A DNA stretch of 64,000 bases from Desulfonatronospira thiodismutans ASO3-1 (lineage in GTDB: Bacteria; Desulfobacterota; Desulfovibrionia; Desulfovibrionales; Desulfonatronovibrionaceae): assembly GCF_000174435.1 (NCBI RefSeq), contig NZ_ACJN02000001.1, positions 302,001-366,000 on the forward strand, read 5' to 3'. The number at the start of each line of letters is the position of its first letter. The first letter of the stretch is position 1. This document shows, piece by piece, positions 42,201-47,779 of this stretch. The notes beneath the pieces were generated by a model. It saw only the letters and a program-made list of their open reading frames with translations, made no database searches and was not told the DNA's origin. The position numbers were made by a program, and so were the translations under genes.

Positions 42201-43267
42201 GCCAGTCCGAACTCTTTGATACCCTGCTGACGGTTCTTTCCAGTGCCGGCAAAGCCCCGGGCCATTCCATCATCACCAGGCATCAGGCCCGGGAGATAAA
42301 AAGACAGCAATCCGAGCTGATAAAATTTAAAGGCCATGTGCTTGTTGCCGAGGATAACCCGGTCAATCAGAAAGTGGCTGTCGGCCTGCTTAATAAAATG
42401 GGGCTGAGTGCGGACATTGTAGATACTGGACTGAAGGCGGTTGAGGCCTTGCAGAACCAAAGCTATGATCTGGTACTTATGGATGTGCAGATGCCGGAAA
42501 TGGACGGACTGGAAGCGACCAGGCGCATACGCGCTGCAGAGGACAGAAATCAGAGGTCAGAAGTCAGAAATCAGATATCAGAGGAAAGAAATCAGAGTAC
42601 AGGCGACAGAAGGTGGGAGAGCCAACCCCTGAACCCCTCAACCCCAGAATACCATAATCCCTCAATCCCAAAATCCTTCAATCCCAAAATTCCTCAATCC
42701 CTCAATCCCAAAATCCCGATAATCGCCATGACCGCCGGAGCCATGCACCAGGACCGGGAAAGGTGTTTAGATGCCGGTATGGACGATTATGTCACCAAGC
42801 CTGTCAACCCGGGTCAGCTTGCCACTGTTTTATCCAGGTGGCTGAAAAAAGAAAACAGCTTCATTCCTCAACAATACGGAAGCATAGATAACAGTGCATG
42901 CCACTTTCAGAAAGCAAGCAATCCTTCAAATCCGCCATTTGATTACAAGTCCTTATTGGACCGCCTTGAGCAGGACCATGAGCTGGCCAGGGAAATTGCA
43001 AATATGTATCTGCAGGATATCCCTGCCAAAATAGAAGAACTGCAAAAGGCTCTGGAAGACAAAGCAGTACAGAAAGTCCTGCGCGCAGCCCACTCCATCA
43101 AGGGTAATTCTGCCAATACCGGTTGCATGGCCATAAGCGCTATAGCTGAAATGATGGAAAGCCTTGCACAATCTGGTGAACTTGACAAGGTCGCAAACCT
43201 TATGCCTGAACTGAAAAGACAGTTTGAAATCTGCAAGACTGAAATAGAAAAAATTCAGGACACTTAA
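39227..43267 (+). CDS. Hybrid histidine kinase (PAS-PAS-GAF-GAF-HisKA-HATPase-REC-REC-HPt) with two repeat insertions
   Basis: 1346 residues from the ATG at 39227 (GGAG seven bases upstream; a TTG start lies four codons earlier). Domains: PAS (20-145, paralogous to that of the kinase at 32052), PAS (150-270), two GAFs (285-430, 445-620), HisKA ([12 protein letters not shown], histidine near 639), HATPase (690-870), receivers at about 885-1005 ([12 protein letters not shown]) and 1040-1210 ([13 protein letters not shown]), and an HPt domain with [13 protein letters not shown] (histidine near 1288). This is a complete phosphorelay in one chain, needing only an output. Repeat DNA is inserted in frame in the HATPase (41537-41569) and in the second receiver (42541-42714). 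Confidence 0.93.
41537..41569 (+). repeat. GAAGTCAGA-type insertion in the HATPase domain
   Basis: CAGAAGTCAGAGGCTAGAAG and a further AGTCAGAAGTCAGAC are translated as [10 protein letters not shown] between the strand VVVMVQ and the strand [12 protein letters not shown]. The unit is the same as in the receiver insertions. It lengthens a surface loop. Confidence 0.75.
42541..42714 (+). repeat. In-frame repeat insertion in the second receiver (kinase at 39227)
   Basis: 174 bases (58 codons). The left part has CAGAGGTCAGAAGTCAGAAA-type units and the right part has CTCAATCCC/AAAATCCC-type units. It interrupts the receiver between ATRRIRAAE and [10 protein letters not shown], the same loop as in the kinase at 36024. 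The frame is kept. Confidence 0.85.
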
Positions 43268-43298
43268 ATCCCACATCAAGCATATCCAGGAGGCTGTA

Positions 43299-43487
43299 AT
43301 GGCAGAAAAAGGCGATGATCCCCAGACAAAAGCTCTAACCTGGGATGAAGTTTCTTATTCCAACATGATTCAGCACGAGGCTCTTATTTCCCTGCTTCTG
43401 GAAAAGGGTGTAATCACTGAAGAGGAATACTTGGACAAGGTCAGGCAGGTCACCAGGGAGCTCCAGGACAGGCAGGCAGGGCAGTAA
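43299..43487 (+). CDS. 62-residue protein following the hybrid kinases
   Basis: AGGAGG precedes the ATG, 31 bases after the kinase stop. The protein is helical and charged: KALTWDEVSYSNMIQHEALI, then SLLLEKGVITEEEYLDKVRQ and a basic-acidic tail ending in RQAGQ. I do not recognise a named family. Being co-transcribed, it may be a small partner of the signalling system. The last 17 codons recur as an orphan fragment at 49113-49166, so the gene was once duplicated. Confidence 0.85.
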   Translation: MAEKGDDPQTKALTWDEVSYSNMIQHEALISLLLEKGVITEEEYLDKVRQVTRELQDRQAGQ

Positions 43488-43508
43488 TCTGTGAGGTGAC
43501 TGCCTCTC

Positions 43509-43699: not shown

Positions 43700-43850
43700 A
43701 GACGCTTAGCACAAATCTCAAACCAACAAATTGGAACCTTTATCTGACACCCTGCTTGTTACGCCTATGGAGTAATTAAACACCCAGCACTCACTTTAAT
43801 TATTTCGGTCTCATCATCATATGCAATCAAATGAAAAGTGAGTGCTGGGT
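43700..43850. repeat. Repeat D (divergent) plus GCACTCACTTT hairpin
   Basis: GACGCTTAGCACAAAT...CAAACCAAC...CTTTATCTGACA (43698-43755) is a diverged copy of the repeat at 25834 and 52633-52685. The hairpin at 43782-43850 has arms ACCCAGCACTCACTTT and AAAGTGAGTGCTGGGT. Confidence 0.75.
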
Positions 43851-44079
43851 CCTGCAAAGCAGGGTTTAACTGGGCCTGCCCGGTTAAACAAATCTGAAGG
43901 ATTACCCGGTTAAACCGGGTCCCTCTGGGTGTTTAACACGGGATTTCCTGCAAAGCAGGGTTTAACTGGGCCTGCCCGGTTAAACAAATCCGAAGGTTTA
44001 CCCGGTTAAACCGGGTCCCTCTGGGTGTTTAACACGGGATTTCCTGCAAAGCAGGGTTTAACTGGGCCTGCCCCAATGA
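43851..44079. repeat. Tandem 96-bp repeat rich in GTTTAAC palindromes
   Basis: CCTGCAAAGCAGGGTTTAAC starts at 43851, 43947 and 44043 (two full 96-bp units and a partial third). Each unit holds CCCGGTTAAAC...GTTTAAC-type inverted words. An inverted partial copy is at about 52556-52632. The unit then joins CCAATGAATAGGCTTACGTG, also found inverted at about 52525-52550. Confidence 0.88.
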
Positions 44080-44101: not shown

Positions 44102-44333
44102 TCTCCCCTCCTTAGCCAAGGAGGGGCCGGGGGTGGTTGTAACCAATCCCTTCCTTATCTCTCCCCGCCTTAGCCAAGGAGGGGCCGGGGGTGGTTGTAA
44201 CCGATCCCTTCCTTATCTCTCCCCTCCTTAGCCAAGGAGGGGCCGGGGGTGGTTGTGACCAATCCCTTCCTTATCTCTCCCCGCCTTAGCCAAGGAGGGG
44301 CCGGGGGTGGTTGTAACCAATCCCTTCATTGTT
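44102..44333. repeat. Four tandem 58-bp units with CCTT-AGCC-AAGG palindrome
   Basis: The word CTTAGCCAAGG recurs at 44111, 44169, 44227 and 44285, exactly 58 bases apart. Each unit reads CTCCCC, palindrome, GGCCGGGGGTGGTTGTAACC, AATCCCTTCC. Single units occur at 45835-45895 and inverted at 52465-52520, and the palindrome is shared with the 415-bp arrays. Confidence 0.9.
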
Positions 44334-44412: not shown

Positions 44413-44700
44413 TTAATCAAAATGGCTTTCTGAAGAAAATACTTTGGATTTGAGGGGGAAGCGTTCGGGATGTCTGATAATTTCTTCTGTGAGGTCAACG
44501 TCGATTTCAGGCCAATAAAAATGACCAGGGGATTGTTCCTGAACATTCAAGATATTTTTGAGCGGCTGGTCTTTAAACCAGGGGAATTCATCATAAGGCA
44601 TGAAAAGTTCATTATCATGAGTCAAGATCCAGATTCCGTGACTGGAAACATGAGTAACTTCAACTGCTGAAGTGTTTAATCCACGCGCTGGCAAGCTCAT
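44413..44700 (-). CDS. DUF2442 protein (copy 2)
   Basis: 95 residues from the ATG at 44700 (an alternative lies at 44715). NTSAVEVTHVSSHGIWILT, FMPYDEFPWFKDQPL and HFYWPEIDVDLTEEII are the family signature. Its start lies within the end of the DUF4160 gene, as in copy 1 at 30110. The C-terminus is extended by a charged tail (PERFPLKSKVFSSES) relative to copy 1. Putative toxin-antitoxin partner. Confidence 0.9.
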   Translation of the reverse strand: MSLPARGLNTSAVEVTHVSSHGIWILTHDNELFMPYDEFPWFKDQPLKNILNVQEQSPGHFYWPEIDVDLTEEIIRHPERFPLKSKVFSSESHFD

Positions 44701-44899
44701 GGTGGTGCTCCTCAATAATTGCTTCTATTTCTTTCAATTCTTTTCTGGAAAACCTGTAATTATTCGCCAGTTCCAGTTCCGGCTTAAGCCAGAACTTGGC
44801 TTCTCCTTCATTGGAGACAACATGCACATGCATTCTGGTTTCTTCTCTTGAAAAAAAGAAAAACCTGTAGCCTTTTTTTCTGAATACTGTTGGTGTCAA
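44660..44899 (-). CDS. DUF4160 protein (copy 2)
   Basis: 79 residues. TVFRKKGYRFFFFSREE, MHVHVVSNEGEAKFWLKP and the helical tail SRKELKEIEAIIEEHHHELA match the family and copy 1 at 29881, but the two are clearly diverged rather than recent duplicates. It is the first gene of the pair. Confidence 0.9.
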   Translation of the reverse strand: MTPTVFRKKGYRFFFFSREETRMHVHVVSNEGEAKFWLKPELELANNYRFSRKELKEIEAIIEEHHHELASAWIKHFSS

Positions 44900-45164
44900 A
44901 TATTATTCCTGTTAACAAATATCCGCATGGATCTCTTGTAAGTCAAGTACCGGCAGTCAGAAAAATAATCAACTCTCACTTCACCCCACCAAGCATCTTA
45001 ATCATCGGCAAAGTAGCGTTCATAAAGGGCTCAAGTCTGATTTTCAGCCCGCTCCAATCTCTTCATGGCATACAAACCCTCAACCCCGCCAACCGAAGTA
45101 AACTTCCTTGTATCCTTGGAGCCAAGCAGGTGCTTGACCTGGTCAAATATTTCCCCCGCCTGCC
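44900..45164. other. Gap without a recognisable gene
   Basis: The sequence upstream of the DUF4160 gene holds short open frames in several directions but none with a ribosome site or recognisable protein. Palindromic repeats begin at about 45165. Confidence 0.4.
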
Positions 45165-45530
45165 TTGTGAATCCGGGCTCCCTCTGGGTGATTCACTGGG
45201 TAAAATTCCTGTCACGCCTCTGGCGTCATTGAATCTCTTCTTATTCAACCGGGGTCTTCCCATTTTACTGGGGCCTCCTGCACAAAGTCCTTGCTTGCCC
45301 TGTGAAATGCCGTAACACGGCCCTGCTACGCAGGATTTCACTGGGCCGCCGATAACTCCGGAATCTGTTTACCCGGTTAAACCCGGCCCCGCGTGACCCA
45401 GCACTCACTTTTCCATTTGTTTGCTTATGATAGAGCCGAAAATATTAAAGTGAGTGCTGGGTGTTTAACCGGGTTCACCCGGTTAAACACGGCAGAGCCG
45501 TAGACCTTCGGTCTGTTTAACCGGGTGAAA
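45165..45530. repeat. Cluster of word-swap palindromes
   Basis: At least five short palindromes lie side by side: GTGAATCCGGG...GATTCACTGGG (45170-45205), CATTGAAT...ATTCAACCGGGG (45228-45256), CCCTGTGAAAT...ATTTCACTGGG (45298-45348), the ACCCAGCACTCACTTT hairpin (45396-45462) and GTTTAACCGGG/CCCGGTTAAAC arms (45371-45530). The frame (CGGG, CCCTCTGGG) stays similar while the paired word changes. Confidence 0.8.
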
Positions 45531-45736
45531 TACCTGCATCTGTACCTGAAACGCTCTACCCTGGAAATCTTGTAACCCTTCTTTCCGGCCTTTTCCACAA
45601 CCTTTTGATCAATTCCTCTACTCACTGACCCTTGTCCCCTTTTGTCCTTGATGGGCAGGCCCTGCAGGGCGGTTCTTGATATTATATGGTAGACTGTAGG
45701 CTGGTTGTCTCGGACAAATCTGGCAATTCCAGGCAT
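45524..45736 (-). pseudogene. Remnant of a RAYT-like (Y1, REP-associated) transposase
   Basis: The frame from ATG 45736 begins MPGIARFVRDNQPTVYHIIS then RTALQGLPIKDK, the N-terminal pattern of REP-associated tyrosine transposases (PRIAR...VYHVMSRT-like). After residue 32 it jumps to a segment ending SRVERFRYRCRYFT, which resembles the C-terminal VRYFTDG region of the same family. The middle, with the HxH metal motif and the catalytic tyrosine, is missing. It runs into palindromic repeats at the 3-prime side. It cannot be active. Confidence 0.65.
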
Positions 45737-45834
45737 GGTGGACCTTCTGGAAGGCTTGCGGTTGCTGGGGTTGAGAGGAATTTAGCGAAATTGAGTAGAA
45801 AAGGCAACTCAAAGAACCTGTCCCCTGCGTCTCT

Positions 45835-46500
45835 CACCGCCTTAGCCAAGGAGGGGCCGGGGGTGGTTGTAACCGATCCCTTCATTATCTCTACCCTCCT
45901 TCAGTGGCTTACTCCTGAAACCCTGTCATAAAAAACAAGAACCACGCGCTGCGCGTGGCAGGCCTTAGACAGGATTAACAGGATTGACCCCAGTTGAATG
46001 GAAGAGATTCAACGGGGCAAGCAGGATAAGCAATCTGCGGCCCCGGTGAAATCAGCTGCGCTGTCCTTCGGCCCCGGTTAAGCATAAGAAGGCTTCACGG
46101 GGTAAAAATTTCACAGGGCAAGCCGGAAGCCGCAGATTGCATTAACCATCCAGCACTCACTTTCTTCTTCATGAGTGCCGGAAAAAAGTGAGTGCTGGAG
46201 TGATAACCTTTTGGCCTGGCTTCCGCCTGTCCCGTTTAATTGCTCGCAGAGCAAGCCCGAAGGGCATTAAACTGGGAGCCAGGACAAAGATGATTTCCTC
46301 TTCATCAATCTCTTAATCCTGTTAATCCTGTCAAAAAAGTTCTTTTCTTTATTGGGTTGCGGGCAAAGCCAGCATTAGGAAGAAAGTATGAGTGTAAGTG
46401 GGTATCCATGTATGGTGTAAAGATTTTTTGACTCCCATACTCCCATACTCCCATACTTCTTAAGGCCAAGGGTGGTTGTATGTGATTCCTTCCTTTCCAT
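45835..46500. repeat. Left copy of a long inverted composite repeat (with composite repeat C, copy 2)
   Basis: Blocks in order: a 58-bp unit (45835-45895), GGCTTACTCCTGAAACCCTG, an ACCACGCG-CTG-CGCGTGG hairpin, ACAGGATTAACAGGAT, two ATTCAACGGGG / GTGAAAT palindrome pieces, the hairpin at 46150-46198, TTAATCCTGTTAATCCTGTC, GGGTTGCGGGCAAAGCC and tandem CTCCCATA units (about 46433-46460). The same blocks appear in reverse complement and in the same order at 51995-52520. Confidence 0.85.
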
Positions 46501-46502
46501 AT

Positions 46503-46721
46503 ATTTCGTGGAACACTGCCAGAAAAAAGGCTGGTCTGGAGGATGTGAAAATCCATGCCCTGAGGCACAGCTTCGCCAGCTTCCTGGTTAACGCCGGTCG
46601 GAATTTGTATGAGGTAGGGAAGCTGCTGGGACATACCCAAATAAGTACAACTATGCGCTATGCTCACCTTGCGGATGAGACCCTGGAGGAGGCGGTAACA
46701 CAATGCCTATGGGAAAAGTAG
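46503..46721 (+). pseudogene. C-terminal fragment of a tyrosine recombinase
   Basis: The frame NTARKKAGLEDVKIHALRHS, LLGHTQISTTMRYAHL ends at 46721. It has the HxLRHSFAS motif, the LLGH motif and the catalytic tyrosine of phage-type integrases, but the first catalytic arginine and the DNA-binding part are absent. The left edge coincides with the end of the composite repeat, so the 5-prime part was replaced by repeat DNA. It is not a copy of the recombinase at 30629. Confidence 0.85.
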
Positions 46722-46777: not shown

Positions 46778-47779
46778 TTACTGTGCTGCTCTGTTTACGA
46801 GCTCAGTGAATTCTTCGAGGGACTGGGTTCTGAGCACCTTTCTGTTCAGAGCCCTTAAGTTCTCCAGAGATTGAATTGACTTGATTTTTTCGTTGAGTGA
46901 TCCAGGCAAAGGACCGTATGCTTCTGTGGCGATATCTATAAGGGTTTCATGGGCGTTTTTTAGTTCAGCTTGCTTCTCCCAGTAAGGTCTTCTTGTTCGT
47001 TCAACCCGCTCCTCTATTTCTCGTGCGGCTACACCTATCATTTCCTCACCCCCTGCAAAACGTTTGGTATGCTCAAGCAGTCTCTTCTCTGGAATAGCAC
47101 CAGAAGCCATAACGTATCTGACAATAATGAACAGGTAATCAGTCAGCTTATCGTTATCAGGGAATTTTTCCAAAAGGTCATAAATTTCATGGATTTTAGT
47201 ATCCAGCTCAGGATAATATATGTATTTCAAGAGCAGATGGAATATCTCCATTATGGTGGTCGTCTTGAATGAAGCTTCATCCATCTGCCCGATATCGTGC
47301 AAAATATGCCGGAACTGGGGAATGAAATCCTTGAAATGCTCAGATGGCAGCTGAAAAAGGTCCTCAAACTGAACACTGAAATTCCACCCCTTATAGCCAT
47401 TATAAATAACCACCGGAACAATGATTGGCAAGTACTGGTCGAGTTTACCATCCACTAAAAGCCGCATCCATTTCTGCACCTGGTAATTCAGGGTCTGCAG
47501 TATGGTGAACCTGTACGGTTTGCTTTTGTGCTCAAACAGGAAATACAGTTCCAGCTCATGAATCCTGTCCTTGAAATAAACCTTGGCTACCACGTCTGAA
47601 TAAAATTCTTTAAATTCCTCAGACAGATAACCCTCCATATCAATCTCAATGATTGTCAGGTCCAGGTGCTTTTTGACTTCCTCAGGAAGATAGTACTGGA
47701 TGAAGTCCCGAACAAACTCCTCTCGGCTGAAGAAACTCTTAAAACAGAGGTCGTGTGCATTTGGAATCTTCTTGCTCAT
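46778..47779 (-). CDS. Rpn/YhgA-like PD-(D/E)XK nuclease, putative transposase family
   Basis: 333 residues. The N-terminus NAHDLCFKSFFSREEFVRDF and YLPEEVKKHLDL are typical of the Rpn (recombination-promoting nuclease, Transposase_31) family. Active-site elements follow: SDVVAKVYFK near 62-72 and LYFLFEHKSKPYRF near 80-93 (E-x-K). YQVQKWMRLL and LPIIVPVVIYNGYKGW are family stretches. Members nick DNA and promote RecA-independent recombination. It is complete and the only intact recombination-type enzyme in the repeat-rich zone, so it could help reshuffle the repeats there. Confidence 0.9.
   Translation of the reverse strand: MSKKIPNAHDLCFKSFFSREEFVRDFIQYYLPEEVKKHLDLTIIEIDMEGYLSEEFKEFYSDVVAKVYFKDRIHELELYFLFEHKSKPYRFTILQTLNYQVQKWMRLLVDGKLDQYLPIIVPVVIYNGYKGWNFSVQFEDLFQLPSEHFKDFIPQFRHILHDIGQMDEASFKTTTIMEIFHLLLKYIYYPELDTKIHEIYDLLEKFPDNDKLTDYLFIIVRYVMASGAIPEKRLLEHTKRFAGGEEMIGVAAREIEERVERTRRPYWEKQAELKNAHETLIDIATEAYGPLPGSLNEKIKSIQSLENLRALNRKVLRTQSLEEFTELVNRAAQ

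Follow-up and report, generated by a model that had tools for sequence, protein, structure and literature searches.

The systems closest to the element studied here are found among the Y1 transposases. In the part of the TnpA_Y1 classification of Quentin et al. (PMC6006769) on which we draw, a YVDLNP motif, a long protein and several copies per genome are the marks of subclass 2.3, which has a median length of 325 aa, is tabulated for Chromatiales and Alteromonadales and, like subclass 2.1, is described as having no REP sequences nearby. The REP-associated subclasses are low-copy in the table of the same paper. For TIRYT elements, PMC3733652 gives GGGGWSAS as a motif common to some of their ends. 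We analyzed a 64,000-nt stretch of DNA from Desulfonatronospira thiodismutans ASO3-1 (referred to as the window), in which a sequence-only reading had placed a decayed RAYT-like transposase within a cluster of palindromes and had suggested a former source of these palindromes at this position. With a probability of roughly 0.87, we conclude that the locus is a dead gene of a multi-copy Y1 transposase whose core was deleted and into whose C-terminal part palindromes were inserted at three places without evident target duplication.

The remnant at window positions 45524–45736 (minus strand) consists of 71 codons, as quoted in the sequence-only reading, and lies within a 103-codon open frame that ends at 45425 and whose last codons pass through palindromes. 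A homologue search with the 71 codons yielded Y1 relatives matching both its N-terminal and its C-terminal piece. Both pieces are parts of one Y1 transposase, and this genome has 20 long open frames, each of which matches the two of them. Identity to these 20 open copies was 58–82% for the N-terminal piece (codons 1 to 31–34; best E 8e-14) and 70–88% for the C-terminal piece (codons 39–71; best E 1.7e-13), the latter also matching the dead copy C3:9315 at 84% (E 1.3e-14). At the DNA level, the C-terminal piece was 76–89% and the N-terminal piece up to 86% identical to the copies listed. Control queries, comprising 50 shuffled versions and one reversed version of the remnant peptide, gave no match at E≤0.01 against the 30 loci with Y1 matches. 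The homology between remnant and transposase is not due to chance, and the 71-codon remnant is real.

The dead copy is larger than 45524–45736. Blastn comparison with the intact copies C3:43366 and G010:C31 revealed a whole, palindrome-interrupted transposase copy at 45044–45825 (minus strand, as are all its parts given below), reaching from the left-end motif GGGGACAG at 45818–45825, which fits the GGGGWSAS consensus of TIRYT elements as given in PMC3733652, to the former C-terminus at about 45044. N-terminal codons 1 to about 32 occupy 45641–45736 and show, leader included, 84% DNA identity to C3:43366. They are followed by the deletion junction AGGGGACAA at 45632–45640 and by a first C-terminal segment (GSVSRGIDQKVVEK...RYRCRYF) at 45526–45631, identified by protein and blastn matches. 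The piece RYRCRYFT had been described as C-terminal-like and as running directly into palindromes. It does belong to the C-terminal region, and a palindrome does adjoin it at 45525, but its counterpart in the seed relative reaches no further than residue 258 of 306 and is not the end of the protein: the C-terminal codons continue beyond the palindromes in three further segments. In the blastn alignment these segments span 45368–45345, 45294–45274 and 45147–45056 and follow one another along the final portion of the gene.

At site 1, a 48-nt palindrome (45478–45525), recognized as an insertion by comparison and with a predicted DNA fold of −17.9 kcal/mol (z −6.97) that forms a three-way junction, fully paired, lies beside a 102-nt palindrome (45372–45473) that was identified by the finder and by comparison of filled and empty sites. 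The second C-terminal segment (about 45346–45367, blastn) separates site 1 from site 2, where a palindrome with a CAAG tail forms a 52-nt insert (45294–45345) with flanks identical to the empty site at 37 of 40 positions. Beyond the third segment (45274–45293, blastn), site 3 is filled by a 124-nt block of nested palindromes (45150–45273; flanks 39/41 identical to the empty site), and the identical position in C3:299932 is occupied by a simple element of 35 nt. The fourth segment (45044–45149), which reaches the former gene end, is 89% identical over 94 nt to G010:C31.

Deletion of the catalytic core, as had been proposed, was borne out by comparison with G010:C31, an intact relative of 315 codons from another genus of the same family, in which the HUH motif starts at residue 60 and the Y motif lies at 155. 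The alignment of the remnant to this gene stops at about codon 34 and resumes at codon 229; missing are codons ~34 to 228, an in-frame loss of about 195 codons with which both the HUH motif and the catalytic tyrosine are gone. Bases 45632–45640 align to both edges of the lost core in G010:C31 (near query 892 and near query 1476), which have GGGACA in common, and a deletion at this short repeat would be the simplest account of the loss. The remnant junction words GQGSV.RGID (GVRGQGSVKRGID) are contained within the G010:C31 gene and are lacking in the own-genome open copy used as reference. The words GGGTCAGTGANNAGAGGAATTGA, found again at C3:9315 and in L110 and present in 3 of the 61 genomes, the own genome among them, resembled a separate left end, and a chimera of two elements joined at codon 33 was considered. 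This candidate was dropped since the junction words occur inside the full-length G010:C31 gene, so that a plain deletion suffices and no chimera is needed.

The frame is open and the deletion in frame, as would be expected if the 71- to 103-codon frame were kept and expressed as a small protein, for example a DNA-binding relic. We regard this as extremely improbable: palindromes supply the final codons of the 103-codon frame, the copy at C3:9315 with the same junction words has lost one base just before its palindrome, and the remnant has no Pfam or NCBIfam match above cut-off.

The genome contains 20 open frames of the transposase with 305–343 codons (stop to stop) as well as fragments; protein lengths are 306 aa for one member counted from its Met and 315 aa for G010:C31. 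Some groups of open copies are 95–99% identical and occur in different surroundings, indicating that the family behaves as an insertion sequence. All 20 copies have retained the HUH motif and the catalytic tyrosine as NH[FW]H (NHFH in 12, NHWH in 8) and Y[VI]DLNP (YVDLNP in 12, YIDLNP in 8), and the W motif is WG throughout. GGGACAG precedes the ATG in every open copy, while 212 of 2000 shuffles also contain GGGWSAS; within 250 nt downstream, 19 of the 20 lack an inverted right-end motif and one has it. The proposal of a decayed Y1 (HUH) transposase from the RAYT-related superfamily with intact relatives elsewhere holds, the relatives including these 20 open copies and G010:C31. Its assignment as a RAYT does not: the protein matches Pfam Y1_Tnp (PF01797) at E 2e-7, but its match to NCBIfam REP_Tyr_transpos (E 1.5e-13) has 50.9 bits against a cut-off of 80, and the family has many copies and TIRYT/2.3-like traits. 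In PDB no relative was found (best E 0.13).

The 11 closest relatives among named genomes (L100–L110) include 7 MAG contigs assigned by label to Desulfonatronospira, Desulfonatronovibrio, Desulfohalobiaceae or Desulfovibrionales. Halanaerobiaceae, Thermoplasmata and Bacteroidales are the labels of the three relatives with the highest similarity, and L109 is labelled Wenzhouxiangella; these off-lineage labels perhaps reflect misplaced contigs or transfer. A separate stretch at G000 C2:25874-30661 holds four transposase copies head-to-tail with repeated spacers; identity is 97–100% across stretches of up to 2 kb, suggestive of tandem duplication of the unit.

The palindromes are insertions into the dead gene, at three sites and some of them nested. 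Filled and empty sites were compared for these three sites and for six sites in a second repeat family (12 comparisons). The inserts measured 34–158 nt, and their flanks were 90% (37/41) to 100% identical. Each insert could be placed at 1–5 equivalent positions; a target duplication of ≤4 nt is possible, while sites 3, C and E leave room for none. The inserts at C and E are nested in a further palindrome, and some inserts end in TAAA or CAAG. The second repeat, represented in the window by a copy at 45900–46380 (plus strand), has at least 20 further copies in the genome and the genus, among which sequence comparison revealed palindromes present in some copies and absent in others at six sites. 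In a tenth, apparent case of insertion, L005 (G000 C2:280969-281298), a Y1 gene belonging to another family is split directly behind its YIDL tyrosine motif by a palindrome that has the same ends. The split gene has 65–72% DNA identity to L002, and both halves are still open (152 and 159 codons).

The strict pattern CCCNGTKRAAY-N0-30-RTTYMACNGGG occurred 99 times in the genome and the reversed pattern not once, although a few of the strict matches listed pair poorly and may be due to chance (e.g. C1:590375). Two 48-nt examples from this locus are predicted to fold as DNA into three-way junctions with an outer stem and two 5-bp hairpins carrying 3-nt loops (z near −7); one of them has an outer-stem mismatch at pair 4. 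With the arms left free, 29 of 73 distinct CCCNGT...ACNGGG pairs from own-genome loci had perfectly complementary 5-nt arms, falling into seven sequence types; 2000 permutations gave 3.7 on average and never more than 10. Only three of these 29 have a Watson-Crick pair at position 4. This shows that arms match within elements, a result that does not imply independent covariation and in which related copies inflate the counts. In Rfam, four hits had E values of at most 1 (lowest 0.024); each was to a miRNA or lncRNA family and scored far under its gathering threshold, and we took them as chance. From titles and the starts of abstracts in the open-access literature, with subscription journals mostly outside the search, we recognized no description of these palindromes.

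Other repeats and genes were noted in this part of the window. A 58-bp tandem repeat with an CCCCTCCTTAGCCAAGGAGGGG palindrome forms four units at 44102–44330, with a further unit at ~45832–45886 beside the dead transposase, and a 96-bp tandem duplication (98% identical) built of CCCGGTTAAAC-type palindromes occupies 43850–44041. A DUF2442 and DUF4160 gene pair (44413–44899) and a gene of 333 codons for a YhgA-like putative transposase (46778–47779; PF04754, E 7e-36) adjoin the palindrome cluster, and a C-terminal fragment of a tyrosine recombinase lies at 46476–46721, matching PF00589 at profile positions 114–171 of 172 with the earlier part of the profile unmatched.

The suggestion that a RAYT source of the hairpins was once located here and spread them in trans draws on the membership of the transposase in the same HUH superfamily, as reflected in the PF01797 match and the REP_Tyr_transpos match under cut-off. 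An intact Y1 gene flanked by the same hairpins would support it. With one finder applied to 14 stretches of the genome, no palindrome was detected within 1 kb of any of the 20 open copies, one of which (C2:368) is near a contig end; the nearest palindrome was 1098 bp away. At 99 palindromes per 4.1 Mb, chance alone would place about one in the 40 kb of flanks, and the result is therefore a lack of association, not depletion. At the transposase loci of the closest relatives (L100–L110) a palindrome was found in 0 of 11, and at loci L146–L153 (L146 being the own genome) in 1 of 8, namely L148 of genome G018, where it lies ~185 bp past the transposase gene. Among the matches listed, G002:C133 covers only window 43262–43495, adjoining the cluster, and offers no view of the empty locus. 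By the same finder, six dead copies contain 14 palindromes (one nested in another) and the dead copy of the window a further three; mutated palindromes escape it, among them those at C3:9315 and one at C4:52953 that were recognized by eye. Short DNA matches that stop at a palindrome edge led to the dead copies C4:52953, C1:11660 and C3:315270, which introduces a small bias; C3:315270 carries no palindrome. These scans covered palindromes of the CCCNGT type.

The survey across 61 genomes, own included, counted the transposase family at E≤1e-20. Palindromes were present in 28 genomes and the family in 17, with both in 11, palindromes only in 17, the family only in 6 and neither in 27. The association was weak (odds ratio 2.9, Fisher p 0.089, relatedness uncorrected), with many exceptions both ways; genomes with the family and no palindromes include G020 (8 matches) and the single-contig G025 (4). 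The 11 shared genomes and the G018 locus lend the RAYT source some weight, but the genomes holding one without the other, the interruption of the gene itself by palindromes, the bare flanks of the open copies and the many open copies, unlike the low-copy REP-associated subclasses as tabulated in PMC6006769, make it very unlikely. A role of the remnant as the palindrome source is not supported; the palindromes interrupt the dead gene.

Movement of the palindromes as folded single strands by another HUH/Y1 enzyme of the genome is a doubtful possibility. Stable hairpin folds, target duplications of at most 4 nt at the nine compared sites and the presence of further Y1 families in the genome speak for it. 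Against it, nine of ten loci of other Y1 genes or fragments have no palindrome, and in the tenth, L005, the gene is split and not flanked. Furthermore, 9 of the 28 palindrome-bearing genomes, four of them 94–98% complete, had neither a PF01797 nor a family match, although the Y1_Tnp profile overlooks some family members, G017 and G023 being matched with the protein only. Examples of palindromes with no Y1 transposase detected are G005 (13 palindromes, 97% complete) and G013 (21, 89%). Genomes lacking a mover could also be explained by vertical inheritance of old palindromes. Transfer of single-strand hairpins by an HUH enzyme would be compatible with insertion without target duplication; nothing links the palindromes to the present transposase.

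Insertion sites are shared among dead copies, site 1 by six and site 3 by five copies as judged by eye, so that the insertions in them are not all independent. Across the copies, sites 1 and 3 occur in all four filled/empty combinations (by eye), which requires recurrence, excision or gene conversion. Dead copies may have served as carriers, the palindromes having landed in one copy and spread by trans movement of that copy or by conversion. The identical sites in several copies and 201 nt common to the remnant and C4:52953 at 95%, across palindrome insertions, point in this direction; left truncations that differ between copies, and insertions in the second repeat family, which has no transposase in it, do not. 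We consider spread by carriers possible, if short of even odds.

According to the favored reading of a dead, interrupted Y1 gene, a multi-copy HUH, single-tyrosine transposase gene of ~306–315 codons died here, probably losing its core by in-frame deletion at the GGGACA repeat, and small mobile palindromes entered its C-terminal part at three places, singly, side by side and one inside another. Palindromes may accumulate in dead copies because such copies tolerate insertion, and some palindrome-bearing dead copies may later have been duplicated or converted. The order of events is thus the reverse of that first suggested, the palindromes having entered an already dead transposase. Tentatively, the palindromes may represent distinct miniature mobile DNA of 30–100 nt that forms a single-strand stem or three-way junction, inserts into other elements of its kind and is moved by machinery other than the local Y1, with Y1 genes and dead copies as landing sites and carriers. 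As part of the same tentative reading, such elements would be characterized by outer-stem sides that match within an element and differ between elements, by the usual mismatch at pair 4 and by no evident target duplication.

The remnant is an ordinary dead insertion sequence, and the palindromes, for which no mover was identified, are the more interesting part. Dead copies with known empty sites provide a base-level record of palindrome insertion, which is rare for short bacterial palindromes. Identifying the mover would make clear whether palindromes of this kind depend on a REP-type transposase at all.

Compared with described systems, the transposase resembles the TIRYT/subclass 2.3-like branch and not a RAYT. 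With TIRYT and subclasses 2.1 and 2.3, as characterized in PMC3733652 and PMC6006769, it has in common a size of ~306–315 aa, a long C-terminal region, YVDLNP or YIDLNP as Y motif, a high copy number, the upstream GGGGWSAS-like motif and open copies without CCCNGT-type palindromes. Subclass 2.3, as its motifs are given in PMC6006769, has NHYH and WE in place of the NHFH/NHWH and WG found here, and TIRYT elements are described with terminal inverted repeats, whereas an inverted right-end motif within 250 nt downstream occurs here in 1 of 20 copies only. Because of NHFH/NHWH, WG and the lack of a right-end partner in 19 of 20 copies, we hesitate to file the family inside subclass 2.3. With RAYT/TnpA_REP it shares HUH, the single tyrosine and the Y---NP motif of class 2; it differs by the lack of CCCNGT-type palindromes at the gene, by its 20 open copies, which are not low-copy, and by a score under the NCBIfam cut-off. 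For the palindromes, no cognate transposase was found linked in own-genome loci, the 61-genome survey or the loci of relatives. They resemble REPINs and REP elements in being many short palindromes with stable hairpins, and differ from them in their CCCNGT...ACNGGG ends, which are followed by varied bases, the sequences listed sharing no GT[AG]G foot, in outer stems that match while the two inner hairpins differ from each other, and in nested insertion.
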